DNA of 64,000 nucleotides from a virus, in the IMG/VR virus record IMGVR_UViG_3300013132_000023, positions 62,001-126,000 of that record; one strand, given 5' to 3'. Below, piece by piece: positions 46,703 through 60,688 of this stretch. Within the stretch, counting starts at the first letter, position 1, and each line of letters starts with the position of its first letter. A model generated the notes under the pieces. It was given only the letters and a program-made list of their open reading frames with translations, was not told the DNA's origin and did not search any database. The position numbers and the translations under genes were made by a program.

Positions 46703-47803
46703 TTATTCCTCTACTAGAACCTTTCCGTGTTCCTCTTTAACTTGTTCTAAAACAGATTTCCAAAGCTTGTCTTCAATGTCCTTGCCGTCTAAGAGAGCAA
46801 AGACATATCCAATTTCGGAATTCAAAGCATTAGCCTGTAGCCACAGAGCATAGTCCTTTCGAGGACGGTTCTCGCCTACCTCGGTAATCATACGACTCAA
46901 GCAGTCGCTTGCTCGCGTATACAGACCGTCTCGTAACCCTTGGACGTATGCACGAATGTCGTCGAAGTCACAAGCAATAGCCGCAGGCAACTGCTTAACC
47001 GTTACTCCGTACTCTCGACCACGAATCAGGTCAATGACTCCCTTGGGAGACAGATAGTTCAATAGACGATGGATACGTAGATACGTAGGGCTCTTGATCT
47101 TCACGCGAAGCCCATTTTCAAAGCGAGCAACATATCCTTCGGAGTTTTCTTCAAAAGGAATTTCGCTACGCAGGTCAATATTGTATCGCTTAGGGCGACG
47201 GAAGCCGCACATAGATGCGATTTGGTCTACGCGACGAGGATGCCACTCAACCCCATTGTGCTCGAACATTGCAAGCAAAACGAGTTCGCGTACACCGTTA
47301 TAATCTACGACGATGCGATTTTCGGGATAGATAATCTCAAACACGGGCGTACAGTCTACAGGTAAATGGTTTAACCAATATCTAGGACGCATGGTTTCTT
47401 CGTTACCAAACCATTCGTTCATAATCTTGGTACCATTAAGAGCTTGTTCCGATTCCATGCTACCCGGCGTGGCTAGTTTCCACTGGTTGTCACGCACGTA
47501 GCCAATGCCGCAGCTTCCGTCTGCCTTTTCATAGACTTCGACGGATTCCTTCCACGGTAGGTTAGCGATAGTAGTTTCAGGGCATTCTCCCAAGTTGAAA
47601 AACTTAGGAAACGGACGAGCTACGACAGTGCCGTCTGTTCGAAAGATGATACCACGAGCCTGACGATTAACTTCGTTCCACAGACCACTAATGTGAGTAT
47701 CTTGGGTGTACTTGAAGATAGTCAGGTCGCCACTTGACGAAGCCGATACTCGACCAGCTTCGACTTCTTTCCAAAGCTTGTTAAGTAGAATAGGGTCTTT
47801 CAT
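46703..47803 (-). CDS. T4 RNA ligase 1-like enzyme
   Basis: A 366-residue nucleotidyltransferase. VEVYEKADGSCGIGYV is motif I with the AMP-accepting Lys in KADG. ARGIIFRTDGTVVARPFPKF is the Rnl1-type upstream segment. FEIIYPENRIVVDY is motif IIIa, NSEGYVARF motif IV and LRVKIKSPTYL motif V. The C-terminal helical part is as in Rnl1. T4 Rnl1 reseals tRNAs cut by anticodon nucleases. The gene fits the tRNA repair set found here. Confidence 0.9.
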   Translation of the reverse strand: MKDPILLNKLWKEVEAGRVSASSSGDLTIFKYTQDTHISGLWNEVNRQARGIIFRTDGTVVARPFPKFFNLGECPETTIANLPWKESVEVYEKADGSCGIGYVRDNQWKLATPGSMESEQALNGTKIMNEWFGNEETMRPRYWLNHLPVDCTPVFEIIYPENRIVVDYNGVRELVLLAMFEHNGVEWHPRRVDQIASMCGFRRPKRYNIDLRSEIPFEENSEGYVARFENGLRVKIKSPTYLRIHRLLNYLSPKGVIDLIRGREYGVTVKQLPAAIACDFDDIRAYVQGLRDGLYTRASDCLSRMITEVGENRPRKDYALWLQANALNSEIGYVFALLDGKDIEDKLWKSVLEQVKEEHGKVLVEE

Positions 47804-48747: not shown

Positions 48748-48916
48748 TTAGTTCCTCACGCCACTTGTTAGCTATTTTGTTCGCTTCTTTAAGCGAATTA
48801 CAGGTTGCTCTATACAATACCCAATTGTTATCCAGTATATGTACGACCCTTACTTCGCAATCATAAACTTCTATTCTTAGTACGCTAGCAAGATTTTTTA
48901 TCATCCTATTTTTCAT
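48695..48916 (-). CDS. Hypothetical protein, 73 residues
   Basis: Starts just after the CCA enzyme stop. Central WVLYRATCNSLKEANKIANK resembles small phage proteins that carry a strand followed by an amphipathic helix. The C-terminal ~17 residues lie over the next gene, so the end may be less constrained. Not recognised. Confidence 0.5.
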   Translation of the reverse strand: MKNRMIKNLASVLRIEVYDCEVRVVHILDNNWVLYRATCNSLKEANKIANKWREELNEICLRRSTSRKKRNLD

Positions 48917-50160
48917 TGACTCCCCTTAAGGGCATGAACGCGAGCTTGCTCCATTTTCTGAGCGATCTTTTCACCGTTCTTTAAATGAGCAAACTGGTGT
49001 CCTTTGACTTGTCTAATGACTGCGGCGGCTTCAAGCAAACGATCCCCTTGTGGGTACGGATTGTTTGCGTGCAGCGGACCCCGGCCTCGTGCGTCAGCCT
49101 TTGCGGCCATGACTACGCGACGAGCTACCAAATCACCCTGTAAGGTTCCAAGTCGCCCTAGCAAGCGAACTTTTGTCGTTGCCTTTAGCTCTTCGAACTT
49201 GTGGATATTCAGATGTTCTCGCGACGCAAGGACGCCAATCTTACGATGCAGACTAGGAGTCCGCAAGCGATCACACATAGCATTAACCAAAGGTACTCCA
49301 AGAGCTTCATGATTGTAGTGGTGTGGGAGATTATGGTCGTCCGTAACTGCCTTTCCAAGGTCATGCACGAGAGCAGCAAACATCGTTTCGTCGTCTGCAC
49401 CCATGTCGCGAGCACGATCAATGACTTGCAACGTATGCACGTAAGCGTCACCTTCCGGATGATGCTTTTCTGGTTGAATGCGACCCTTTAGGGCGGCGAT
49501 TTCTGGGAACGTAATTTCTAAAGCACCCAGCCTATCGAGTGCTTCAAAGAAACAAGACGGTCGTTGCGTACGAAGGGCCTTTTCAAGCTCGCCCCATACG
49601 CGTTCGCCCGGTTCATTAGCTAATTCAGCCAATGCTGGCCGAGCAGCTTCAATCAATTCATCACTGATTGACATGTCTAATTGAGCAGCGAAACGAGCGG
49701 CACGCAAGATACGCACCGGATCTTCTCCGAAGTGGTTGCCAACTGGACGCAGCACCTTGTTTTGAAGATCTCTAATTCCGCCGTAAAGGTCAATGATTTC
49801 TTCGGTGAATGGATCTAAAGCCATTGCGTTAATCGTGAGGTCACGACGACGCAAATCTTCATCAAGTCCTACGTTATTCGTATCGCATTCGAAAGCATGG
49901 TAGCCCCCGCCAATCTTGCGTTCTTTTCTAGCAAGAGCGACTTCAATCCCGTTCACCAAGAATACAGGGAACTTTGCACCAACGACGCTATCGAAACCAG
50001 CCGCATGGAACTGGTTTTCCGATACGCCAATTACTACGATATCCACGTCCTTAGGATTACGCCCTAGGAGTAGGTCTCGTACGTAACCCCCGACAATATA
50101 GGGGCAACCCCCCATCGCTTTGATGCGATGGCAGAGTTCTAGATGCTTACGATGCTTCAT
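48913..50160 (-). CDS. cca: CCA-adding tRNA nucleotidyltransferase
   Basis: A 415-residue class II CCA-adding enzyme with a C-terminal HD domain, the size of E. coli Cca. YIVGGYVRDLLLGRNPKDVD is the G-G-x-VRD motif and DxD metal site, DLRRRDLTINAMALDP the RRD template motif, EDPVRILRAARFAAQLD the ERxxxE-like region, and FAALVHDLGKAVTDD the HD phosphohydrolase part. It builds or repairs the 3' CCA of tRNAs. At least two tRNAs here (Gln-CTG, Trp) lack an encoded CCA, and others may need repair after nuclease attack. Confidence 0.94.
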   Translation of the reverse strand: MKHRKHLELCHRIKAMGGCPYIVGGYVRDLLLGRNPKDVDIVVIGVSENQFHAAGFDSVVGAKFPVFLVNGIEVALARKERKIGGGYHAFECDTNNVGLDEDLRRRDLTINAMALDPFTEEIIDLYGGIRDLQNKVLRPVGNHFGEDPVRILRAARFAAQLDMSISDELIEAARPALAELANEPGERVWGELEKALRTQRPSCFFEALDRLGALEITFPEIAALKGRIQPEKHHPEGDAYVHTLQVIDRARDMGADDETMFAALVHDLGKAVTDDHNLPHHYNHEALGVPLVNAMCDRLRTPSLHRKIGVLASREHLNIHKFEELKATTKVRLLGRLGTLQGDLVARRVVMAAKADARGRGPLHANNPYPQGDRLLEAAAVIRQVKGHQFAHLKNGEKIAQKMEQARVHALKGSQ

Positions 50161-50174: not shown

Positions 50175-50507
50175 CTATCGCAGGTCTTTTGTGTGCTTAA
50201 AACGGCTGCATTTTGTAACAAAAGCTACCAGGATCGGCACGTTTGAGGCAAAATCTTCCGGTTGCCAGAAACACATAGCCTTAACATGTTCTTGTTCTAG
50301 AATATGTTCTACAATTCCCGGCTGTTGACCTTGGTCTTCATGTTCGTCGTCTACGTGACTAGCAAATGGATCATCTGTACCTTGTAAATCCAAAATGTTT
50401 GGCATTACGGGGTGGACAATCTTTTCACTGGCCTTTTCTTGCACGCAAATACCGTATTGGCACTTCCAACACAGACTTTCTTCTGCCTTCGGCATTTCGC
50501 TATTCAT
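50175..50507 (-). CDS. Hypothetical protein, 110 residues
   Basis: ATG at 50507 overlaps the kinase stop. The N-terminus has CWKCQYGIC, a Cys cluster, and the middle is very acidic (DDEHEDQGQQPGIVEHILEQ). A late CFWQPEDF and CSRF add cysteines. Possibly metal-binding. Not recognised. Confidence 0.55.
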   Translation of the reverse strand: MNSEMPKAEESLCWKCQYGICVQEKASEKIVHPVMPNILDLQGTDDPFASHVDDEHEDQGQQPGIVEHILEQEHVKAMCFWQPEDFASNVPILVAFVTKCSRFKHTKDLR

Positions 50508-50955
50508 TTGGGAAGATACTCGTGTTCGTCCACTCGTGTTCGTCCAAGTGTGGTTGGTAGTCGCTAATGTGACGTTCGATAACACTCAAGGGGACGTTAT
50601 GCTTGTTGCGACCAAGCAAGACATTAGCGTTCCAAGGACGTGGAGTGCAAATCATTTCGGTCTTGTAACCCAATTCACCAGCAAGCTTAAAATAGGGCTC
50701 CATTTCCCAATGCTTGATGAAAGTATTTGACACAATCACAAGCGGTACGCCATTTTCCATTTGCGTACGAACTTGCTCCTGATTCCAGGCGTGTGCCCTA
50801 GGGAGTTTCTTGGGATCAAACGAGTAGCCGTCTTGAGTCATGAAATACTGATCCGTTTCATGAACACTAGAACGAACACCGTCTCTTTGTCCCAGGTGAC
50901 GTGCAATCGTACTCTTACCGGAACCGCTTGGGCCTCTCAAAAGAATCAGTTTCAT
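50500..50955 (-). CDS. P-loop kinase, polynucleotide-kinase-like
   Basis: A 151-residue kinase. MKLILLRGPSGSGKSTIARH is the phosphate loop, VIVSNTFIKHWEMEPYFKLA and ANVLLGRNKHNVPLSVIERH resemble the AAA_33/N4BP2-like kinase family, which includes 5' ends of RNA or DNA as substrates. Together with the two RNA ligases it could restore ligatable 5' phosphates in cut tRNAs. It has its own promoter and a near-leaderless start. Confidence 0.75.
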   Translation of the reverse strand: MKLILLRGPSGSGKSTIARHLGQRDGVRSSVHETDQYFMTQDGYSFDPKKLPRAHAWNQEQVRTQMENGVPLVIVSNTFIKHWEMEPYFKLAGELGYKTEMICTPRPWNANVLLGRNKHNVPLSVIERHISDYQPHLDEHEWTNTSIFPNE

Positions 50956-52063: not shown

Positions 52064-52273
52064 TTATAGAGTTTCATTTGGATCGATTGTGAAAATCGCC
52101 TCCGGGCACTTTAGCGATTCGCTATCGTCACCCTCGTAGTAACAAACGCCATAATCAAGGCTGTAACTAATGGTGGCATTTGGGTGCTTTTTAACGATCT
52201 TTTGAAGACGTTCTATCAGATTTGATATCTTGCCTTCAAAGTCATAGGCAGTGTATGTTTCTAAACGTCCCAT
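52064..52273 (-). CDS. Hypothetical protein, 69 residues
   Basis: Begins with a helix-rich part (GKISNLIERLQKIVKKHPNA) and then strands with Tyr and Cys. It resembles small phage proteins with a helix, a P-x-A strand and an acidic turn. The start overlaps the RNA ligase stop by 1 nt. Role unknown. Confidence 0.6.
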   Translation of the reverse strand: MGRLETYTAYDFEGKISNLIERLQKIVKKHPNATISYSLDYGVCYYEGDDSESLKCPEAIFTIDPNETL

Positions 52274-53388
52274 TAGTGATACTCCGTTCCGTCCTTGCGA
52301 GTTAGATAGTCGGGCGAAATGATCTTGAAAACCATACGCTTAGGGTGCGGGTCTAGTTCTCCCTTGCTCCACGTCAATTCGTCGTACATAGGACGAACGA
52401 CAATCCCTTCTCGAATGTGTCCATCTTCAAGGGTGGTGTTTCCTTGTGCCATTTCTAGCAGTGTTTCGTATGACAACATGCCACCACTCAAGAACGGCAC
52501 AAGCGGCAATCTTACCTTATTGCAAATGTGAGTTAGTGCATGATGATTGAGGTATTCACCATTGATAGCAATGTCGAATACACGATATCCCTTCTTGTTC
52601 TTGGCCCCGTAGTGCAGGTCTTGGACACCAGCACCATAGATTTCGCCAAAAACGATTAGTGAGTTCAGTGGACAACCAGTTCCGCCCTCTGGATTTTCAA
52701 TTGCATCGATAGCCCACTCAAGTAGCTTATCAAGTGCTTCGGCGTGTAGCTCGAAAGGAAGACCGTAGACTCCACAGTCGTTAGGGTCACGTTGCGTACG
52801 ATGTGTACCTACAACCTTTTCAAGGTAATCACTCATGCCTCCGTTTTCAGGATCAGGAGTACGTACCCAGCCAACACGGCTATTTGTACCGTGGAGCTTT
52901 TCAGTGACAACCAACGGTATGCTGTAATTAAGAGCTTCTGGGAAGTTACGAAGATTCTGCATATCCGTGTAATGATGGAACAACGGATGCTCTCTTCGCA
53001 TTTGACCAGCAGACATACCTAAGGGCGGCGGGGGCGGTTCGTACTTTTCGATACCGTAGTGAGCAGCTAGGCTCGCACCCGGTTCGGCTCCGCTGTCGTT
53101 AGGAACGAGGAAACCAAAGCTTGCAATACTACGCAAACGAGCGGCCCGGACGCGTCCCATGTCACTGTCCTTCTTAAAGGACAGGTATTGAGTCACGCCC
53201 CACTTATCGGCCCAATCGCGGGGAACCATAACTTCCGGAGGAATGTGTACTACAATGTCTCCAACCTTGTAGTTACCTTTTCCAGACACAATGTCCCAGC
53301 CGCTTACGCGGCAGATTTCAAGACGATCAGCATTGGGATGCGGATTGATAGCGGTCACAACGACCGGAGTGATGATTAGTTCGCTCAT
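52273..53388 (-). CDS. RNA ligase with N-terminal OB domain (DraRnl/Rnl5-like)
   Basis: A 371-residue nucleotidyltransferase. Residues 1-105 are an OB-like domain (VVTAINPHPNADRLEICRVS, GDIVVHIPPEVMVP). VVTEKLHGTNSRVGWV is motif I with KxxGTN, IVFGEIYGAGVQDLHYGA motif III, GHIREGIVVRP motif IV and RMVFKIISPDYL motif V. An OB domain before the ligase core is the arrangement of Deinococcus-type RNA ligase. The phage therefore has two unrelated RNA ligases. Confidence 0.85.
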   Translation of the reverse strand: MSELIITPVVVTAINPHPNADRLEICRVSGWDIVSGKGNYKVGDIVVHIPPEVMVPRDWADKWGVTQYLSFKKDSDMGRVRAARLRSIASFGFLVPNDSGAEPGASLAAHYGIEKYEPPPPPLGMSAGQMRREHPLFHHYTDMQNLRNFPEALNYSIPLVVTEKLHGTNSRVGWVRTPDPENGGMSDYLEKVVGTHRTQRDPNDCGVYGLPFELHAEALDKLLEWAIDAIENPEGGTGCPLNSLIVFGEIYGAGVQDLHYGAKNKKGYRVFDIAINGEYLNHHALTHICNKVRLPLVPFLSGGMLSYETLLEMAQGNTTLEDGHIREGIVVRPMYDELTWSKGELDPHPKRMVFKIISPDYLTRKDGTEYH

Positions 53389-53991: not shown

Positions 53992-54068
53992 TGGTGCCCA
54001 GGGCGGGAGTCGAACCCGCAAAATCTACATTCTAAGCGTAGCACGTTTGCCAGTTACGTCACCTGGGC
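53992..54068 (-). tRNA. tRNA-Leu (anticodon TAG), short variable arm
   Basis: Cloverleaf with acceptor GCCCAGG/CCTGGGC, D-stem ACGT/ACGT, anticodon loop CTTAGAA, T-arm GCGGG-TTCGACT-CCCGC, A73 and encoded CCA. The variable region is only five nt (ATTTT), whereas bacterial Leu tRNAs normally have a long arm. Confidence 0.85.
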
Positions 54069-54435: not shown

Positions 54436-54521
54436 TGGTAGCTTCGGTGGGAGTCGAACCCACACGCTGATTAGGCACCTGATTTTGAGTCAAGCGGGTC
54501 TGCCAATTCCCCCACGAAGCC
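54436..54521 (-). tRNA. tRNA-Leu (anticodon CAA)
   Basis: Acceptor GGCTTCG/CGAAGCT, anticodon loop CTCAAAA, long variable arm, T-arm with TTCGACT, A73, encoded CCA. A normal class II Leu tRNA. The 54471 open frame runs into its 5' half. Confidence 0.9.
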
Positions 54522-54740: not shown

Positions 54741-54768
54741 TCATACCTCGCACATTAGGGTTTGTCAA
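54740..54768 (-). promoter_or_regulatory. Promoter at the end of the macrodomain gene
   Basis: TTGACA (54763-54768), 17 nt, TATGAT (54740-54745) on the minus strand. It would drive the 89-residue gene and tRNA-Leu(CAA). The -35 box overlaps the macrodomain stop codon. Confidence 0.6.
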
Positions 54769-55238
54769 CTCTTGGGCTCGTATTTACAGATGATTGCATC
54801 TGGAAAATACGTCTCTATGATCTTGGAATAAATATCCCAATTGCCGCCACCCAGACCACAGCCCATTTTGTATGGAAAGTAGAATTGTCCATTCCAATAC
54901 TTGGATTCTGGATTTCTCCTTCGTGAATTTACAATTCGTTCAAATGCAGTCACGGTCGCGTCGTAGCTCGTCATGCGTTTCGTCCTTGAAACGTCGCCCT
55001 GGCCAAAAACGTTGGCAATTCTGATGGTTGGCGAAGCATTGAACATCCATACCCTGCCAATCAATTGCTCTTGACTAGTATCATATATTTGACAGTATTC
55101 ACGGTACTTGATTTCAAGTTCGGGCCATTTAAGAGCGAAGCTCCTAGCGATGCCGCCCCCCATGATGCCTCGACAATTGACTTGATGAAATAGAATGCCC
55201 TCTTCGAGGGCGAGCATGTCTTGTTCAATAATCTTCAT
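54765..55238 (-). CDS. Macrodomain protein (ADP-ribose binding/hydrolase)
   Basis: A 157-residue stand-alone macrodomain. NCRGIMGGGIARSFALKWPE is the N-x6-GGG-x-A loop that binds the distal ribose, FGQGDVSRTKRMTSYDA is the middle part and PYKMGCGLGGGNWD the second glycine loop. Such proteins remove or bind ADP-ribose, including Appr-1''-p from tRNA splicing and ADP-ribose on proteins, DNA or RNA. The ATG at 55238 is 7 nt after tRNA-Lys(TTT). A role against ADP-ribosylating defence or in RNA repair is possible. Confidence 0.85.
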   Translation of the reverse strand: MKIIEQDMLALEEGILFHQVNCRGIMGGGIARSFALKWPELEIKYREYCQIYDTSQEQLIGRVWMFNASPTIRIANVFGQGDVSRTKRMTSYDATVTAFERIVNSRRRNPESKYWNGQFYFPYKMGCGLGGGNWDIYSKIIETYFPDAIICKYEPKS

Positions 55239-55245
55239 TGTATTG

Positions 55246-55334
55246 TGGTCCGCTCGGCAGGATTCGAACCTGCGATGGTGATTACTCACTCCAGATTAAA
55301 AGTCTGGCCCCTTCGGCCTCTCGGACACGAGCGG
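55246..55334 (-). tRNA. tRNA-Lys (anticodon TTT), long variable arm
   Basis: Acceptor CCGCTCG/CGAGCGG, 3-bp D-stem with Ser/Leu-like D-loop, anticodon stem CCAGA/TCTGG with loop CTTTTAA, variable arm of 17 nt forming GTGA/TCAC, T-arm GCAGG-TTCGAAT-CCTGC, A73, encoded CCA. Normal Lys tRNAs have a 5-nt variable loop, so this is a class II body with a Lys anticodon. Confidence 0.85.
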
Positions 55335-55354
55335 CGGTTACTCATTGTACACTA

Positions 55355-55383
55355 AGTATAACACGCCGTAGATGTGCTGTCAA
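55355..55383 (-). promoter_or_regulatory. Promoter of tRNA-Lys(TTT)
   Basis: TTGACA (55378-55383), 17 nt, TATACT (55355-55360) on the minus strand, 20 nt before the tRNA. It lies between the Arg and Lys tRNA genes. Confidence 0.75.
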
Positions 55384-55384
55384 G

Positions 55385-55460
55385 TGGTACTTCCACCAGG
55401 ATTCGAACCTGGACGATTCGCTTAGAAGGCGAAGATGCTGGTCCGTTACATCATGGAAGC
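55385..55460 (-). tRNA. tRNA-Arg (anticodon TCT)
   Basis: Complete cloverleaf: acceptor GCTTCCA/TGGAAGT, anticodon loop CTTCTAA in a TTCGC/GCGAA stem, T-arm CCAGG-TTCGAAT-CCTGG, A73, CCA encoded. Reads AGA. Confidence 0.92.
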
Positions 55461-55463
55461 ATA

Positions 55464-55562
55464 TTATTCATTATCGATTACTCTTTGAGCTTCGTCTGCA
55501 AGAGATTGAAGAAAGGCAATATTATTCTTGGCTTTTTCAAGAGAGACTAGTTGTTGGTGCAT
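55464..55562 (-). CDS. Possible 32-residue peptide starting in a tRNA acceptor stem
   Basis: The ATG lies in the 3' acceptor strand of tRNA-Lys(CTT) (GGATGCACCA). The peptide (QQLVSLEKAKNNIAFLQSLA then DEAQRVIDNE) has a clean amphipathic heptad pattern. It fills the 94-nt gap between two tRNAs. No Shine-Dalgarno sequence. It would compete with the tRNA for the same RNA. Weakly supported. Confidence 0.35.
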   Translation of the reverse strand: MHQQLVSLEKAKNNIAFLQSLADEAQRVIDNE

Positions 55563-55643
55563 CCGCCAGGATTCGAACCTGGGTTGGGTTTTCACCGTCC
55601 GATTAAGAGTCGGATGCCTTCGGCCAACTCGGCACACGGATGC
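55555..55643 (-). tRNA. tRNA-Lys (anticodon CTT), long variable arm
   Basis: Acceptor GCATCCG/CGGATGC, anticodon stem TCCGA/TCGGA with loop CTCTTAA, variable arm of 15 nt (GGT-GAAA-ACC), T-arm CCAGG-TTCGAAT-CCTGG, A73, CCA encoded. Again a class II body with a Lys anticodon. Confidence 0.85.
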
Positions 55644-55648
55644 GTGAA

Positions 55649-55725
55649 TGGTCGGGCGTGTTGGAATTGAACCAACCTAATGTCCTCCTTCCAAGGGAGG
55701 CGACCCTCCTTGAGTCCGACGCCCG
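55649..55725 (-). tRNA. tRNA-Pro (anticodon TGG)
   Basis: Acceptor CGGGCGT/ACGCCCG with the C1-G72 pair typical of Pro, anticodon loop CTTGGAA in a CCTCC/GGAGG stem, T-arm GTTGG-TTCAATT-CCAAC, A73, CCA encoded. Confidence 0.92.
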
Positions 55726-55733
55726 TTTTATGT

Positions 55734-55809
55734 TGGTCCGCAGCGATGGTATCGAACCATCTGTCTCTCGGTTATCAGCCGAGTGCATATACCTTTATGC
55801 TTCCTGCGG
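55734..55809 (-). tRNA. tRNA-Ile (anticodon GAT)
   Basis: Acceptor CCGCAGG/GCTGCGG (G7-G66 mismatch), D-stem GCAT/ATGC, anticodon loop CTGATAA in a CTCGG/CCGAG stem, T-arm GATGG-TTCGATA-CCATC, A73, CCA encoded. Normal short variable loop. Confidence 0.88.
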
Positions 55810-55838
55810 AATGTTTTAATAGTTCCAAGATTCTTCTT

Positions 55839-56435
55839 CTAGCTTCTTGGTAACGTTGGCGGTGCAACGTATCGCACAAGAAACCGCTTTGATTTTGCAC
55901 GAGCAATGTACTTCTTGGGTAGCTTAAAATCACCGTTGTTACGAATTACATTAAGCATGATTGCACGCAAACGTTGCTCCGGTTCATCGTACCGACTTCC
56001 CCATTCACCGGCTTGTTGAAGAAGATGATGAATTGATTCATCGTCATTTGGATCCATAACACAACATTCAAACGCCGATTCCATGAGTGTCATGTTGCGT
56101 TCTCCAAAGTACTTCTCAACACGAGGCCATATGTCGTAGTCTTTTGTTACAATTTCATAAACAGAGCACTTGTTCTCGATATTCACGAGAGATACAAAAG
56201 CCGCACCAAGAGCACACACCTGACATGTAGTCTTCTTGTTCTTCTTGAAGAAATCCTTGAACGATCCTGCGATCGTCTCATCATATGCACTCATGTCATT
56301 GCGTAACCATGAGTTTAGTTCAGGAGAATCCACTTGGACATACGTTCCAGGCGTTGCCTTGTAACGATTAAAACGAATCTGAGCCAGAACATCCTGGGCG
56401 ATCTTCACACACATCCGACGATTTCGACGAGTCAT
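55839..56435 (-). CDS. Hypothetical protein, 198 residues
   Basis: Not assigned. A helical protein with CQVCALGAAFVSLVNIENKC, a phage-conserved Cys segment, and CCVMDPNDDESIHHLLQQAG. The N-terminus is basic. The ATG is preceded by a 27-nt (CAA)n-like leader that directly follows tRNA-Ser(TGA). Confidence 0.6.
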   Translation of the reverse strand: MTRRNRRMCVKIAQDVLAQIRFNRYKATPGTYVQVDSPELNSWLRNDMSAYDETIAGSFKDFFKKNKKTTCQVCALGAAFVSLVNIENKCSVYEIVTKDYDIWPRVEKYFGERNMTLMESAFECCVMDPNDDESIHHLLQQAGEWGSRYDEPEQRLRAIMLNVIRNNGDFKLPKKYIARAKSKRFLVRYVAPPTLPRS

Positions 56436-56462
56436 ATTTGTTGTTATTGTTGTTGTTATTGT
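56436..56462 (-). promoter_or_regulatory. CAA-rich leader between tRNA-Ser and the 56435 gene
   Basis: On the minus strand the 27 nt between the tRNA 3' end and the ATG consist of AACAATAACAACAACAATAA and similar units: no G, no structure and no Shine-Dalgarno sequence. It may act as an unstructured leader for the message freed by tRNA 3' processing. Confidence 0.4.
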
Positions 56463-56549
56463 TGGCGGAAGGTTAGGGAATCGAACCCTAGAGGCTTTTT
56501 ACACCCAGCCGTTTTCAAGACGGTTTCCTCGACCTACCGGACACCTTCC
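56463..56549 (-). tRNA. tRNA-Ser (anticodon TGA)
   Basis: Acceptor GGAAGGT/ACCTTCC, anticodon loop CTTGAAA, long variable arm, T-arm CTAGGG-TTCGATT-CCC, G73 as in Ser, CCA encoded. Its 5' 16 nt overlap the end of the 56534 gene. Confidence 0.9.
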
Positions 56550-57001
56550 AAATTTTTCACATCTGCTGGAAAGAGATACTTAGTGAGAACTTCACCAATC
56601 CCACGATCCAGAATAACCGCGAGCAGCTTGTTATGGTCTCCCTCAAACGGGCCGCTCATGAGTTGATCATACCACTTATACCAGTGTTCGTCAAGAACAA
56701 TCTCGACTGGCTGTCCTGGAACGTGCTCGAAATAGTCGGCATCGGTTTTAGGGGCAGCACGCACCTGAATAGTAATTCCGCTTTTACGAGAAGACTGGTC
56801 TTTTACCGGGACGATCTTGTCAATCGGCGGCAGTATGCCAATCCCAAGTGCGTCGTTAATGCGTTCAAACAAAGCCTCAAGAGGCGTTAACCCCTTTGTC
56901 ATTTCTTCTTTCGTGCGTTTGAATCGCTTGGCTCCAGTTACGGTCTTGTAGCTTTCGAGACAAGTGATTTGCTTTGCTTGTTCTTGCGTAATGTCGTTCA
57001 T
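56534..57001 (-). CDS. Hypothetical protein, 155 residues
   Basis: ATG at 57001 overlaps the upstream stop (TAATG). Helical first half (QEQAKQITCLESYKTVTGAK, LEALFERINDALGIG) and a C-terminal part with EIVLDEHWYKWYDQLMSGPF. Its stop lies inside the tRNA-Ser gene. Not recognised. Confidence 0.6.
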   Translation of the reverse strand: MNDITQEQAKQITCLESYKTVTGAKRFKRTKEEMTKGLTPLEALFERINDALGIGILPPIDKIVPVKDQSSRKSGITIQVRAAPKTDADYFEHVPGQPVEIVLDEHWYKWYDQLMSGPFEGDHNKLLAVILDRGIGEVLTKYLFPADVKNLEGVR

Positions 57002-57579
57002 TAAAAACTCCATCCCAAATTGATCATATACATTTCGCAATCCAACTCAGGATTGATGATGAAAATGTCTACGTCTTGATTGAAGAAGTGGCGTCGATAT
57101 TCGACTCCCACAAAGATGTTGTCTGTAAAGAACCAAGACGTACCAAAATTGACATATGGTGCGTAAGCTTGACCACGATCTTGCGGAGTGCCAGCGTAAC
57201 TCAAATCTACCTGAGTTTCAAGTTCAAACGAAGACATACCGCCGCTTGCCGACACTTGCCACGAATCCGTGACCATCCAGTTCTTTCGCAAACCCAAATA
57301 CACTTCTTGAACAGTGGTCTTTGTGCTGTCTACGCGACGATTGATATACACATCGTCATTTGACACGTCCTGGCTTTGCATAAAACCGAACTCAGGTCCG
57401 AAGCCATCTTTTCCAGCTAGGTCAATACTGCCACCCAGCACGTTCGTTTGCTGGTCAGTTGATTCCCAATCGCCAGAATCTTGAAAATCGCGAACGCCAA
57501 CCCCGACCTTCGCGTTAGGGGCCATGCGGCAGCTAGTGACAAGCGTAGCAAAAGTCAGAACAGAGAGTAAGTGCTTCAT
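57001..57579 (-). CDS. Outer-membrane beta-barrel-like lipoprotein
   Basis: A 192-residue protein. Signal peptide MKHLLSVLTFATLVTSC with a lipobox-like VTSC. The mature part alternates short amphipathic strands (KVGVGVRDFQDSGDWE, FGPEFGFMQSQDVS, VQEVYLGLRKNWMV, YAPYVNFGTSWFFTDN, IFVGVEYRRHFF) and ends MYMINLGWSF with a terminal Phe, the usual signal of outer-membrane barrels. It may alter the host surface, for example to block superinfection. Family unknown. Leaderless-type promoter. Confidence 0.65.
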   Translation of the reverse strand: MKHLLSVLTFATLVTSCRMAPNAKVGVGVRDFQDSGDWESTDQQTNVLGGSIDLAGKDGFGPEFGFMQSQDVSNDDVYINRRVDSTKTTVQEVYLGLRKNWMVTDSWQVSASGGMSSFELETQVDLSYAGTPQDRGQAYAPYVNFGTSWFFTDNIFVGVEYRRHFFNQDVDIFIINPELDCEMYMINLGWSF

Positions 57580-57586
57580 ATGATCT

Positions 57587-57614
57587 ATTGTACCACACGT
57601 TTGTTCGTTGTCAA
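57587..57614 (-). promoter_or_regulatory. Promoter of the beta-barrel lipoprotein gene
   Basis: TTGACA (57609-57614), 16 nt, TACAAT (57587-57592) on the minus strand; the ATG at 57579 is 7 nt after the -10 box. Confidence 0.7.
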
Positions 57615-57623
57615 GAAAAAGTT

Positions 57624-57715
57624 TGGCGGTAGGTGTAGGATTTGAACCTACGGAGGTTTTAAAGCCCCGCTTCTTTAGCAAAGAAGTGCCTTAGGCCAGA
57701 CTCAGCCAACCTACC
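57624..57715 (-). tRNA. tRNA-Ser (anticodon GCT)
   Basis: Acceptor GGTAGGT/ACCTACC, anticodon stem CTTCT/AGAAG with loop TTGCTAA, long variable arm, T-arm GTAGG-TTCAAAT-CCTAC, G73, CCA encoded. Confidence 0.92.
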
Positions 57716-57720
57716 AATTA

Positions 57721-57795
57721 TGGAGCCCCGTGAAGGATTCGAACCTGGACAAAGAGATTCAAAATCTCTGGTGCTAGCCGTTACACTATACCGGA
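57721..57795 (-). tRNA. tRNA-Gln (anticodon TTG), mismatched acceptor and T-stem
   Basis: D-stem GTGT/GCAC, anticodon stem AGAGA/TCTCT with loop TTTTGAA and T-loop TTCGAAT are normal. The 3' end CCTTC-ACGGGGC-T-CCA does not pair with the 5' acceptor TCCGGTA (two of seven pairs) and only three T-stem pairs form. Looks like a chimera broken at the T-loop, or a decayed tRNA. The pyrimidine-dimer glycosylase gene overlaps its 5' end by 15 nt. Confidence 0.65.
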
Positions 57796-58269
57796 AATAA
57801 TCAATTGTTTCTGTGTAGGCCATACGTATTCCATTGTAGGGTCTTCGATCCAATTAAATTGACCGTAATAGACAGGATCTTTGCGAAGCAAGTTTGCACG
57901 ATGTGAAGCATGAAGCTCAGACAATCCAATCCAAGGCGGCATTTCAATGTTTGAAGAAATTGGTCCTGGTCGCATGGTGTTCTCGTATCCGCGATTAATC
58001 CATTCCGCAATAGCTTCATTCATATACGAACGTAACGCTTCATTATATCCACGCCACATAACTGCTGCCGGGTGATTTAACCATCCTTTTTTCAAAGGAC
58101 TGTTTTTCATAAAACCTTGATCAATACGCCATTGACGTTCAGTCAAAGCCCATTCATCGCCATTTACAATCAACAGTTGAAATGCTTCAACACGTTGTTT
58201 GCCGAGACGACGATAATCTAAACACGAAAGAGACTTAGTAAAGTCTGAAAAAGGAAGAAATGTTTGCAT
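57781..58269 (-). CDS. Pyrimidine-dimer DNA glycosylase-like protein
   Basis: A 162-residue protein of the family annotated as pyrimidine-dimer DNA glycosylase (T4 endonuclease V relatives). MQTFLPFSDFTKSLSCLDYR, RLGKQRVEAFQLL, WLNHPAAVMWRGYNEALRSY, and SELHASHRANLLRKDPVYYG are the family blocks. It would start repair of UV dimers. ATG at 58269. The stop lies within tRNA-Gln(TTG). Confidence 0.8.
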   Translation of the reverse strand: MQTFLPFSDFTKSLSCLDYRRLGKQRVEAFQLLIVNGDEWALTERQWRIDQGFMKNSPLKKGWLNHPAAVMWRGYNEALRSYMNEAIAEWINRGYENTMRPGPISSNIEMPPWIGLSELHASHRANLLRKDPVYYGQFNWIEDPTMEYVWPTQKQLIISGIV

Positions 58270-58270
58270 A

Positions 58271-58483
58271 TTACATCTTGGTGATGCAACGATCAACACC
58301 CGTCAAAAACAAGGCAAGAATAATCACTCCTAGAATGATTGCCACAGGAATCCAAAGCGGGGCGAGCACCCACAGCCAAGGCCAGTTAATAATGTTGCCA
58401 AGCTTGAGGCCGATGAAAAGAATGGCCAATAGGCCAGTAAAGCCAACACCGCCCGAGCGAACTTTGATTTTTTGATTAGACAT
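58271..58483 (-). CDS. Small membrane protein, 70 residues
   Basis: Two membrane helices (GFTGLLAILFIGLKLGNIIN and APLWIPVAIILGVIILALFL) joined by a Trp-rich WPWLWV turn, with a short basic N-terminus. This hairpin type is frequent in phages. ATG 58483 is chosen because an upstream GTG at 58528 would lie before the predicted transcription start. Confidence 0.65.
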   Translation of the reverse strand: MSNQKIKVRSGGVGFTGLLAILFIGLKLGNIINWPWLWVLAPLWIPVAIILGVIILALFLTGVDRCITKM

Positions 58484-58528
58484 TGGATTGTGTTTAGGTT
58501 GAGGTTCAAGTTTAGTAGTAACAACCAC

Positions 58529-58556
58529 AGTATATCATGTCTCCTGGAGTTGTCAA
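58529..58556 (-). promoter_or_regulatory. Promoter downstream of tRNA-Asp
   Basis: TTGACA (58551-58556), 16 nt, TATACT (58529-58534) on the minus strand; drives the small membrane protein and the glycosylase gene. Confidence 0.7.
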
Positions 58557-58570
58557 GTGAAAATTAACGT

Positions 58571-58645
58571 TGGCGGGCCTACGGGGAATCGAACCCCGAT
58601 CTTCTATTCGACAGACAGATATTCTAGCCTTTGAACTATAGGCCC
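58571..58645 (-). tRNA. tRNA-Asp (anticodon GTC)
   Basis: Acceptor GGGCCTA/TAGGCCC, anticodon loop CTGTCGA in a TCTGT/ATAGA stem, T-arm CGGGG-TTCGATT-CCCCG, G73 as in Asp, CCA encoded. Confidence 0.92.
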
Positions 58646-58652
58646 ATTGTTT

Positions 58653-58727
58653 TGGTGCCTCCCCCAGGTAACGCTCCTGAGCCTCCAGTATTTCAAGCTG
58701 GAATGCAGACTTCTACACCAGGGAGGC
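58653..58727 (-). tRNA. tRNA-Phe (anticodon GAA), atypical D and T loops
   Basis: Perfect acceptor GCCTCCC/GGGAGGC and CCA. Anticodon stem CCAGC/ACTGG with loop TTGAAAT. The D-loop (AGAAGTCT) has no GG and the T-loop (AGCGTTA) has no TTC, so the usual elbow contacts cannot form. Still a plausible cloverleaf. Confidence 0.75.
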
Positions 58728-58801
58728 GGATCTTCTAACAGGATAATGTTTCCGAGTCGCACGTCTCTGTGCTTCTGATGCTTTCGCCATGATTTTGTTT
58801 T

Positions 58802-58877
58802 TGGGGTGCCTAACGAGTATCGATCTCGTACCTGGAGATTCACATTCTCCCGTGCAGGCCACTACACTATAGACACC
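58802..58877 (-). tRNA. tRNA-His (anticodon GTG)
   Basis: Acceptor GTGTCTA/TAGGCAC plus an encoded G-1 that pairs with C73, the His identity pair. Anticodon loop ATGTGAA in a GGAGA/TCTCC stem, T-arm ACGAG-ATCGATA-CTCGT, CCA encoded. Confidence 0.9.
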
Positions 58878-58884
58878 GCTATGA

Positions 58885-58962
58885 TGGTAGCCACAGCGGG
58901 ATTCGAACCCAGCACTTTACAGATTTTAAGTCTGTTGACTCTGCCGATTGGTCTACGTGGCC
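58885..58962 (-). tRNA. tRNA-Leu (anticodon TAA), short variable arm
   Basis: Acceptor GGCCACG/TGTGGCT, Leu-like D-loop AATCGGCAGA, anticodon stem ACAGA/TCTGT with loop CTTAAAA, variable region only six nt, T-loop TTCGAAT, A73, CCA encoded. Lacks the long arm expected for Leu. Confidence 0.85.
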
Positions 58963-58989
58963 ATAAGTTGTTTGTTTTCAAAGCTGTAC

Positions 58990-59005
58990 GCTATTCGCGA
59001 ATAGC
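58990..59005. repeat. 16-bp perfect palindrome between tRNAs
   Basis: GCTATTCG followed by CGAATAGC with no spacer. It lies in the 51-nt gap between tRNA-Ile(TAT) and tRNA-Leu(TAA). It could be a protein-binding site or an RNA hairpin for processing. Confidence 0.6.
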
Positions 59006-59013
59006 GAATGTAT

Positions 59014-59105
59014 TGGTCCGCAGGGTGGGATTCGAACCCACGTATTTCGCATATCAGGCGATGACTGATCATAAATCAGGGGGCTTACCGCTAACCGACC
59101 TGCGG
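59014..59105 (-). tRNA. tRNA-Ile (anticodon TAT), long variable arm
   Basis: Acceptor CCGCAGG/CCTGCGG, anticodon stem CTGA/TCAG with loop TTTATGA, a long variable arm with TCGC/GCGA, T-arm GTGGG-TTCGAAT-CCCAC, A73, CCA encoded. Reads AUA. Ile tRNAs normally have a short variable loop. Confidence 0.82.
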
Positions 59106-59135
59106 AAAAAGTTTGCCCCCAGGACAAAGGAAGTC

Positions 59136-59270
59136 CTAATTGTACCTGATACGATCTTCACCTTCTTCTTCGAACCATTCTTCGGTCTCGAAGTCCTCGG
59201 CGACGACGCGGTAATCATACACTGCGTCCTCGTCCGTGTCAAGTGTTGTTTCGAAAGATTCTTCTTCCAT
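59136..59270 (-). CDS. Acidic microprotein, 44 residues
   Basis: Starts at ATG 59270, 5 nt after the 3' end of tRNA-Asn; a GGAG inside that tRNA's acceptor strand is at a usable distance. Very acidic (EDAVYDYRVVAEDFETEEWF). Acidic phage microproteins can act as DNA mimics, but there is no proof. Confidence 0.5.
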   Translation of the reverse strand: MEEESFETTLDTDEDAVYDYRVVAEDFETEEWFEEEGEDRIRYN

Positions 59271-59275
59271 TGTAT

Positions 59276-59368
59276 TGGCTCCGAGAGTAGGACTCGAACC
59301 TACGGTGGGGGAATTTCTCCCCTTCGCATTAACAGTGCGATGCGTGCTACCAACTCCGCAACCTCGGA
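59276..59368 (-). tRNA. tRNA-Asn (anticodon GTT), long variable arm
   Basis: Acceptor TCCGAGG/TCTCGGA, D-stem GCG/CGC, anticodon stem TCGCA/TGCGA with loop CTGTTAA, T-loop TTCGAGT and G73 all fit Asn. A 20-nt variable arm (GGGG/CCCC hairpin) is present where Asn tRNAs have five nt. CCA encoded. Confidence 0.85.
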
Positions 59369-59381
59369 ACGTTGTTGTTGC

Positions 59382-59454
59382 TTGCGAGACTAGGATTCGC
59401 ACCTAGGTTTCTCCGGTCAGAGCGGAGCGTACTAGGCTGCTGTACGATCCCGCA
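59382..59454 (-). tRNA. tRNA-Gln (anticodon CTG), no encoded CCA
   Basis: Acceptor TGCGGGA/TCTCGCA, D-stem GTAC/GTAC, anticodon stem CTCCG/CGGAG with loop CTCTGAC, T-arm CTAGG-TGCGAAT-CCTAG, A73. The DNA reads GCA, not CCA, after position 73, so the CCA enzyme must add it. Confidence 0.85.
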
Positions 59455-60609: not shown

Positions 60610-60617
60610 ATTGTTTG

Positions 60618-60688
60618 CAGGGGCATAAGGAATCGAACCCTAGTCTATCGCTTTGGAGGCGAGTATATTACCACTATACTATACCCCT
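60618..60688 (-). tRNA. tRNA-Trp (anticodon CCA), no encoded 3' CCA
   Basis: Acceptor AGGGGTA/TGCCCCT, anticodon loop CTCCAAA, T-arm TAGGG-TTCGATT-CCTTA, G73. The DNA continues CAA rather than CCA, so a CCA-adding step is needed. Confidence 0.88.

Follow-up and report, generated by a model that had tools for sequence, protein, structure and literature searches.

Phage tRNAs with exchanged variable arms and a candidate second anticodon-like arm in tRNA-Ile(UAU)

In bacteria, long variable arms (V-arms) are found only in the tRNAs for Ser, Leu and Tyr (and Sec), and these isotypes make up class II. Here we describe tRNAs that depart from this textbook rule in a 64,000-nucleotide stretch of viral DNA (the window), which corresponds to bases 62001-126000 of the 137,177-base IMG/VR virus record IMGVR_UViG_3300013132_000023, and in which tRNAs for Lys, Asn and Ile carry long arms and two tRNAs for Leu carry short loops. 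The closest described cases are the nematode nev-tRNA-Gly(CCC) and nev-tRNA-Ile(UAU), which share with the phage tRNAs a V-arm of 15-20 nucleotides (nt) on isotypes, Ile(UAU) included, that normally have a short loop. An earlier reading of the window from its letters (the original prediction) had noted this likeness. However, the V-arm of the nematode tRNAs is of the Leu type, and in vitro these tRNAs accept Leu (PMC4300185). In the phage, by contrast, the arms of Lys and Asn show a Tyr-like spacing and that of Ile is a GAU hairpin.

Evasive phage tRNAs form a second group of relevant systems, and include the tRNA-Lys of T5, which acts against PARIS, and the tRNA-Tyr of T5 and SP15, which acts against retron-Eco7 and Septu. 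Phage copies replace the host tRNAs that have been cut, and the known evasive variants differ by base changes in the anticodon loop or stem (PMC10264068, PMC12409363). The tRNAs described here are likewise copies of targeted isoacceptors, but in these the whole structural class is switched. The Mycoplasma-type tRNA-Ile(UAU), which relies on an adapted isoleucyl-tRNA synthetase (IleRS), and the tRNA-Ile2 that carries lysidine or aminovaleramide also solve the problem of decoding AUA while being recognised by IleRS. In tRNA-Ile2 the modified residue is C34, and charging requires lysidine at this position (L34) or the derivative of lysidine (PMC11938285), while the phage form apparently adds a second anticodon hairpin. 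Allo-tRNA and selC* tRNA are bacterial examples of natural tRNAs with an unusual arm architecture; they resemble tRNA-Sec, with altered acceptor and anticodon stems (PMC7609411), whereas the phage tRNAs have a 7-base-pair (bp) acceptor stem and a 5-bp T stem.

Six tRNAs with exchanged arms were found by ARAGORN where the original prediction had placed them, all on the minus strand, and were scored against the Rfam model RF00005, which has a gathering cut-off of 29 bits. The tRNA-Lys(UUU) (55246-55334; 55.3 bits) has a variable region of 17 nt (55274-55290) with a 4-bp stem and a GUAA loop, and 4 unpaired nt separate the V-stem from the T stem; its discriminator is A73. The tRNA-Lys(CUU) (55555-55643; 52.7 bits), also with A73, has a variable region of 15 nt (55583-55597) with a 3-bp stem, and that of tRNA-Asn(GUU) (59276-59368; 50.3 bits) spans 20 nt (59304-59323) with a 5-bp stem, G73 and U1-A72 being retained. 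In tRNA-Ile(UAU) (59014-59105; 48.4 bits) the variable region measures 22 nt and contains a 4-bp stem, and the decoding anticodon UAU lies at 59071-59073. RNAfold drew the extra hairpin in all four, so that the predicted long arms with helices of their own were borne out at 15-22 nt. The variable loop measured 5 nt in tRNA-Leu(UAG) (53992-54068; 62.3 bits; A73) and about 6 nt in tRNA-Leu(UAA) (58885-58962; 48.0 bits; A73, A15 and A20a). All six tRNAs encode CCA, have an intact acceptor stem and score above the cut-off as canonical tRNAs. The four long-arm tRNAs therefore have a class II structure (a variable arm of at least 10 nt with its own stem), but their anticodons and discriminators are those of Lys, Asn and Ile rather than of a class II isotype. 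The tRNA-Leu(CAA) (54436-54521, minus strand; ARAGORN and Rfam), which served as an internal comparison, has an ordinary longer variable region, and the swap is thus incomplete.

Taken together with the comparisons below, we consider it slightly more probable than its negation (a probability of roughly 0.55) that these are functional phage tRNAs in which the variable region has been changed and the synthetase identity kept, by class switching and, in the case of Ile, by a second arm.

Occurrence in phages and bacterial genomes

Arm swaps are a phage-wide phenomenon, common in phages and absent from the bacterial genomes sampled. All scans were samples, so that counts refer to the matches listed. 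Identical sequences were removed and kinship was ignored; because deduplication was by identity only, the counts are inflated by shared ancestry, which tells against our interpretation. The long-arm form of tRNA-Asn(GUU) was seen in 0/299 Pseudomonadota genomes, as against 211/299 for the short form, and the short-arm form of tRNA-Leu(UAA) in 0/249, as against 165/249 for the long form. These differences indicate that the swap is not due to chance. Long-arm Lys tRNAs were also present at seven loci in contigs filed as bacterial genomes, although several of these contigs may stem from phages or prophages.

In two scans of viral contigs arm length was not a selection criterion; ARAGORN was run on the loci, and only tRNAs with intact stems were retained. 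Short arms were observed in 64 of 152 viral Leu tRNAs (~42%). The arm was long in 15 of the 34 tRNAs for Ile(UAU) and in 8 of the 72 for Asn, while a Ser tRNA lacking the long arm was not encountered (0/103). Long-arm loci made up about 13 of the 120 viral Lys(UUU) stretches among the matches listed.

Relatives of the phage in the window have long-arm Asn, Lys(UUU), Thr or Cys tRNAs and short-arm Leu tRNAs. Three CUA-anticodon tRNAs occur in these relatives and were called tRNA-Pyl by ARAGORN; these, and two tRNAs annotated 'tRNA-Sup' in phage XacN1, are possible amber suppressors.

Isolated phages also carry switched tRNAs. Long-arm Asn tRNAs are present in phiKZ, PA1C and 7t3, as well as in 4MG, where they accompany two short Leu tRNAs, and long-arm Lys(CUU) tRNAs in CcrBL9 and Ruegeria phage V10. 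Phage X1 combines long-arm Asn and Lys, as does Mesorhizobium phage Cp1R7A-A1, and XacN1 has long-arm Lys, Thr, Cys, Gly and Asn tRNAs. A relative of T5, KookSpook, has a long-arm Thr and two short Leu tRNAs, and about 94 records contain the long-arm Thr of T5 relatives. In T5 itself, where the PARIS paper had led us to expect class-switched Thr and Asn tRNAs, this was ruled out, both being class I. Most of the switched tRNAs in isolates are annotated as plain tRNAs, although one long-arm tRNA of Cellulophaga phage phi4:1 is annotated 'pseudo'; in phiKZ a second annotated tRNA-Asn of 78 nt stands beside the long-arm one. The textbook rule is thus often broken by phages, well-studied isolates included. 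The literature that we searched, a partial coverage with many subscription papers outside it, contained no remark on this and no report of class-switched or two-anticodon phage tRNAs. As natural variants, these tRNAs offer a way of testing what the variable region contributes to the choice of synthetase and to immunity directed at tRNAs.

The proposed second arm of tRNA-Ile(UAU)

The original prediction had grouped the Ile tRNA with those for Lys and Asn. However, the arm of the Ile tRNA is of another kind and looks like the anticodon arm of tRNA-Ile(GAU). In the window copy, positions 59047-59061 (minus strand) form a hairpin with a 4-bp stem (UCGC/GCGA) and a 7-nt GAU-type loop, CUGAUAU (59051-59057), in which the equivalent of pair 29:41 is C-G. 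Between this hairpin and the T stem lie 5 nt, giving a layout of 2/4/7/4/5. This assignment, beside the UAU arm, draws on the sequence and on the statistics of the family. When long viral Ile(UAU) tRNAs were aligned, the arm was seen to be tipped by a near-invariant 7-nt loop, CAGAUUA or CAGAUAA. Among the matches listed, 128 viral Ile(UAU) tRNAs are unique, and 94 of these have the second hairpin, with the loop CAGAUUA in 71 and CAGAUAA in 20 of the 94. The window copy is divergent in its loop, which has U33, yet it retains C29-G41, and its D-arm resembles that of a locus (L553) with the loop CAGAUAA. The viral Ile(GAU) anticodon loop is CUGAUAA in 65/134, and the second loop resembles this sequence with U33 replaced by A.

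Among the matches listed by a motif scan in which the anticodon was unconstrained, 108 tRNAs had AGATW within a long variable region, and 92 of these were Ile(UAU); the remainder were mostly weak or partial matches. The stem pairs equivalent to 31:39 and 30:40 were paired in 92/92 with several pair types (shuffled means of 50 and 44). The pair equivalent to 29:41, third from the loop, showed no covariation and was C-G in 86/92, compared to 22/94 in the decoding arm of these tRNAs, 68/134 in Ile(GAU) and 12% in other isotypes (Fisher, 2e-24). When 19 long-arm Ile(UAU) tRNAs that did not come from the motif scan were considered, 17 were also two-armed, and 14 of those 17 had C29-G41, indicating that the result was not produced by the search pattern. 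An Ile(UAU) tRNA with an AGAUWA arm was found in 0/747 genomes from three bacterial phyla, and the two-arm form is present in phages of Sinorhizobium and of lactobacilli. In a subfamily of two-arm Ile(UAU) tRNAs, represented by six loci, the linker is a single base and the D-arm is very small, with a stem of 3-4 bp and a loop of 4-7 nt.

These features suggest a division of labour between the two arms. The first arm (UAU) would decode AUA on the ribosome; work on Mycoplasma mobile reportedly leads one to expect that U34 is a poor residue for IleRS. The second arm would present G34-A35-U36, A38 and C29-G41 to the host IleRS, and A33 would keep its loop from decoding. C29-G41 is a known Ile determinant, with t6A37 as a strong determinant for the bacterial-type enzyme (PMC9976931), and IleRS relies on G34 or lysidine-34, the tRNA-Ile2 with unmodified C34 not being charged with Ile (PMC11938285). 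The two-armed Ile tRNA thus suggests a new viral route to charging of a phage tRNA by the host. If Ile is indeed charged through the second arm, decoding would be physically separated from charging within one tRNA, and such a molecule could be useful for orthogonal translation systems. The fuller proposal, that two-arm Ile(UAU) tRNAs are widespread with a GAU arm that serves IleRS solely and so bypasses lysidine, and that, separately, tRNAs attacked by hosts are systematically class-switched, is tentative, and we place it just short of an even chance.

Several properties of the second arm argue against docking of IleRS. Its loop usually has U37 and so cannot carry t6A37, and with A33 the usual U-turn is lost. 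The stretch of 5-6 nt that follows the arm resembles a class I variable loop in length and only weakly in sequence, and because the 5-nt tail matches the class I profile poorly, the idea of an inserted anticodon arm draws little support from it. Some viral Ile(UAU) tRNAs, about a quarter, do without the second arm, which therefore is not always needed. An alternative is that the hairpin binds another partner, such as a modification enzyme, a host nuclease for which it would be a decoy, or the D or T loop of its own tRNA. The deviation of A33 and U37 from a genuine Ile anticodon loop would fit such a partner, and a loop that varies so little might just as well serve for docking. However, the GAU core, A38 and a conserved C29-G41 in an otherwise variable stem are a combination of Ile identity elements, and the near-confinement of the motif to Ile(UAU) also speaks for IleRS. 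We regard another partner as a serious contender, if clearly on the less probable side.

Charging and possible benefit of the switched tRNAs

With regard to class switching, the proposal is that Lys and Asn tRNAs, and elsewhere those for Thr, Cys and Gly, would be built on class II bodies, that Leu tRNAs would have shed the arm, and that each would go on accepting its cognate amino acid. Discriminators in the switched tRNAs are cognate, with G73 in 30/31 Asn, U73 in 5/5 Cys, A73 in 22/22 Ile and mostly A73 in Lys. Between V-stem and T stem there is most often 1 unpaired base in Ser and Leu tRNAs, against 3 in Tyr and 3-4 in switched Lys, Asn and Thr tRNAs, and the 3' spacing of 3-5 nt, compared to 1-2 in Leu, sets these arms apart from the Leu type of the nematode tRNAs. 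SerRS recognises its tRNAs in part by the orientation of the V-arm (PMC7609411), so that the Tyr-like spacing should disfavour both SerRS and LeuRS, and TyrRS should be excluded by the anticodon. The V-arm loops of switched tRNAs other than Ile are mostly GNRA-type tetraloops. Short viral Leu tRNAs keep A73, A14, G18G19 and A20a in 139-143 of 151 each and A15-U48 in 140/151, and thus have the elements of an E. coli-type LeuRS substrate. In E. coli, tRNA-Leu remains active without the arm, and the LeuRS determinants include A15-U48, A20a and A73 (PMC9976931), so that LeuRS would have no need of it. Given the cognate identity elements, the Tyr-like spacing and the independence of LeuRS from the arm, ordinary charging is the best reading and is likelier than recoding.

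A possible benefit is evasion of host nucleases, which the original prediction had already suggested and which we regard as a sensible lead. The tRNA-Lys is a target of PrrC. The substrates of the PARIS nuclease AriB are exactly Lys(UUU), Thr(UGU) and Asn(GUU), which it cuts while apparently contacting the D-loop besides the anticodon stem (PMC12409363). For tRNA-Tyr, retron-Eco7 and Septu cut the variable loop, and the tRNA-Tyr of T5 is reportedly resistant through its distinctive loop (PMC13096335). Switching is commoner in Lys, Asn and Thr together (25/306) than in other class I isotypes with Ile excluded (13/815; p=5e-7, the Lys count being corrected for 13 long loci first fetched by another scan), and also for Asn alone (p=9e-5), so that targets of such nucleases are enriched among the switched isotypes. 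Host tRNases that recognise the body of the host isoacceptor would then no longer act on the phage copy. Two observations count against this. The AriB-site UAAU is kept in 62/86 class-switched Lys(UUU) tRNAs, compared to 77/155 of class I; the cleavage motif is not lost and therefore lends no support to evasion, its retention being equally in line with a change of body that replaces a change of stem and with no evasion at all. In addition, the Thr and Asn tRNAs with which T5 counters PARIS belong to class I. By analogy with the known evasive tRNAs, we consider escape through a changed tRNA body plausible.

Relaxed constraint would account for the switched tRNAs differently: spare tRNAs would be remoulded from any body at hand, by an anticodon shift on a Ser- or Tyr-like body or by loss of the arm in Leu, and the switched arm would have no function. 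The D-arms of switched Lys tRNAs are nearest to those of class II groups, Ser first, and these tRNAs were therefore probably remoulded from class II bodies, as this explanation would have it; the dispensability of the arm for LeuRS (PMC9976931) and the retention of the 78-nt tRNA-Asn in phiKZ also agree with it. However, identity elements and V-arm spacing are maintained, switching is biased by isotype, Ser is never armless in the sample (0/103), and the Ile arm shows both sequence conservation and covariation. We therefore hold this explanation to be unlikely, though still worth weighing.

Recoding, in which the long-arm Lys, Asn and Ile tRNAs would be charged with Ser or Leu and AAR, AAY or AUA codons partly mistranslated, could be suggested by the class II bodies and by the Leu charging of nev-tRNA-Ile(UAU) in vitro (PMC4300185). 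The original prediction had raised altered charging as a possibility, but the spacing is Tyr-like, unlike that of Ser or Leu, the discriminators are cognate, and nineteen large open reading frames (ORFs) of the window translate cleanly under the standard code, making recoding very improbable. That these are annotation artefacts or decaying genes, as odd arms in some neighbouring tRNAs and the 'pseudo' label in phi4:1 might hint, is already contradicted by Rfam scores of 48-62 bits, intact stems, conservation in many unrelated phages and covariation, in accordance with the earlier view that decay is unlikely, and has a negligible chance of being true.

Neighbouring genes and tRNAs

ARAGORN detected 24 tRNAs in the window, where AUA use is modest (8% of Ile codons). 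A megablast comparison of the tRNA region with named phages gave no match. The window encodes RIIB and a T4-type RNA-repair set, the members of which lie on the minus strand. These are an RNA ligase resembling T4 Rnl1, a tRNA-repair enzyme (46703-47803; Pfam PF09511, phrog_562), a CCA-adding tRNA nucleotidyltransferase (48913-50160; phrog_2244 at 3e-109, and Pfam), a polynucleotide-kinase-like protein (50500-50955; phrog_2071, phrog_505) and a second RNA ligase (52273-53388; phrog_968, PF09414). An ORF at 54765-55289 adjoins the long-arm Lys tRNA and matches the phage phosphatase family phrog_335, and is a possible further member of the RNA-repair set. Because its listed start overlaps the tRNA, the ORF probably begins at an internal start.

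Encoded CCA is missing from tRNA-Gln(CUG) (59382-59454) and tRNA-Trp (60617-60688), which is consistent with the phage having its own CCA-adding enzyme. In tRNA-Phe (58653-58727) the T-loop lacks the usual TTC motif, and this tRNA falls below the Rfam cut-off, as do the tRNAs for Pro (55649), Ser-UGA (56463) and Ala (62021). The tRNA cluster also contains genes for an outer-membrane beta-barrel-like protein (57001-57681) and a pyrimidine-dimer glycosylase (57781-58299).

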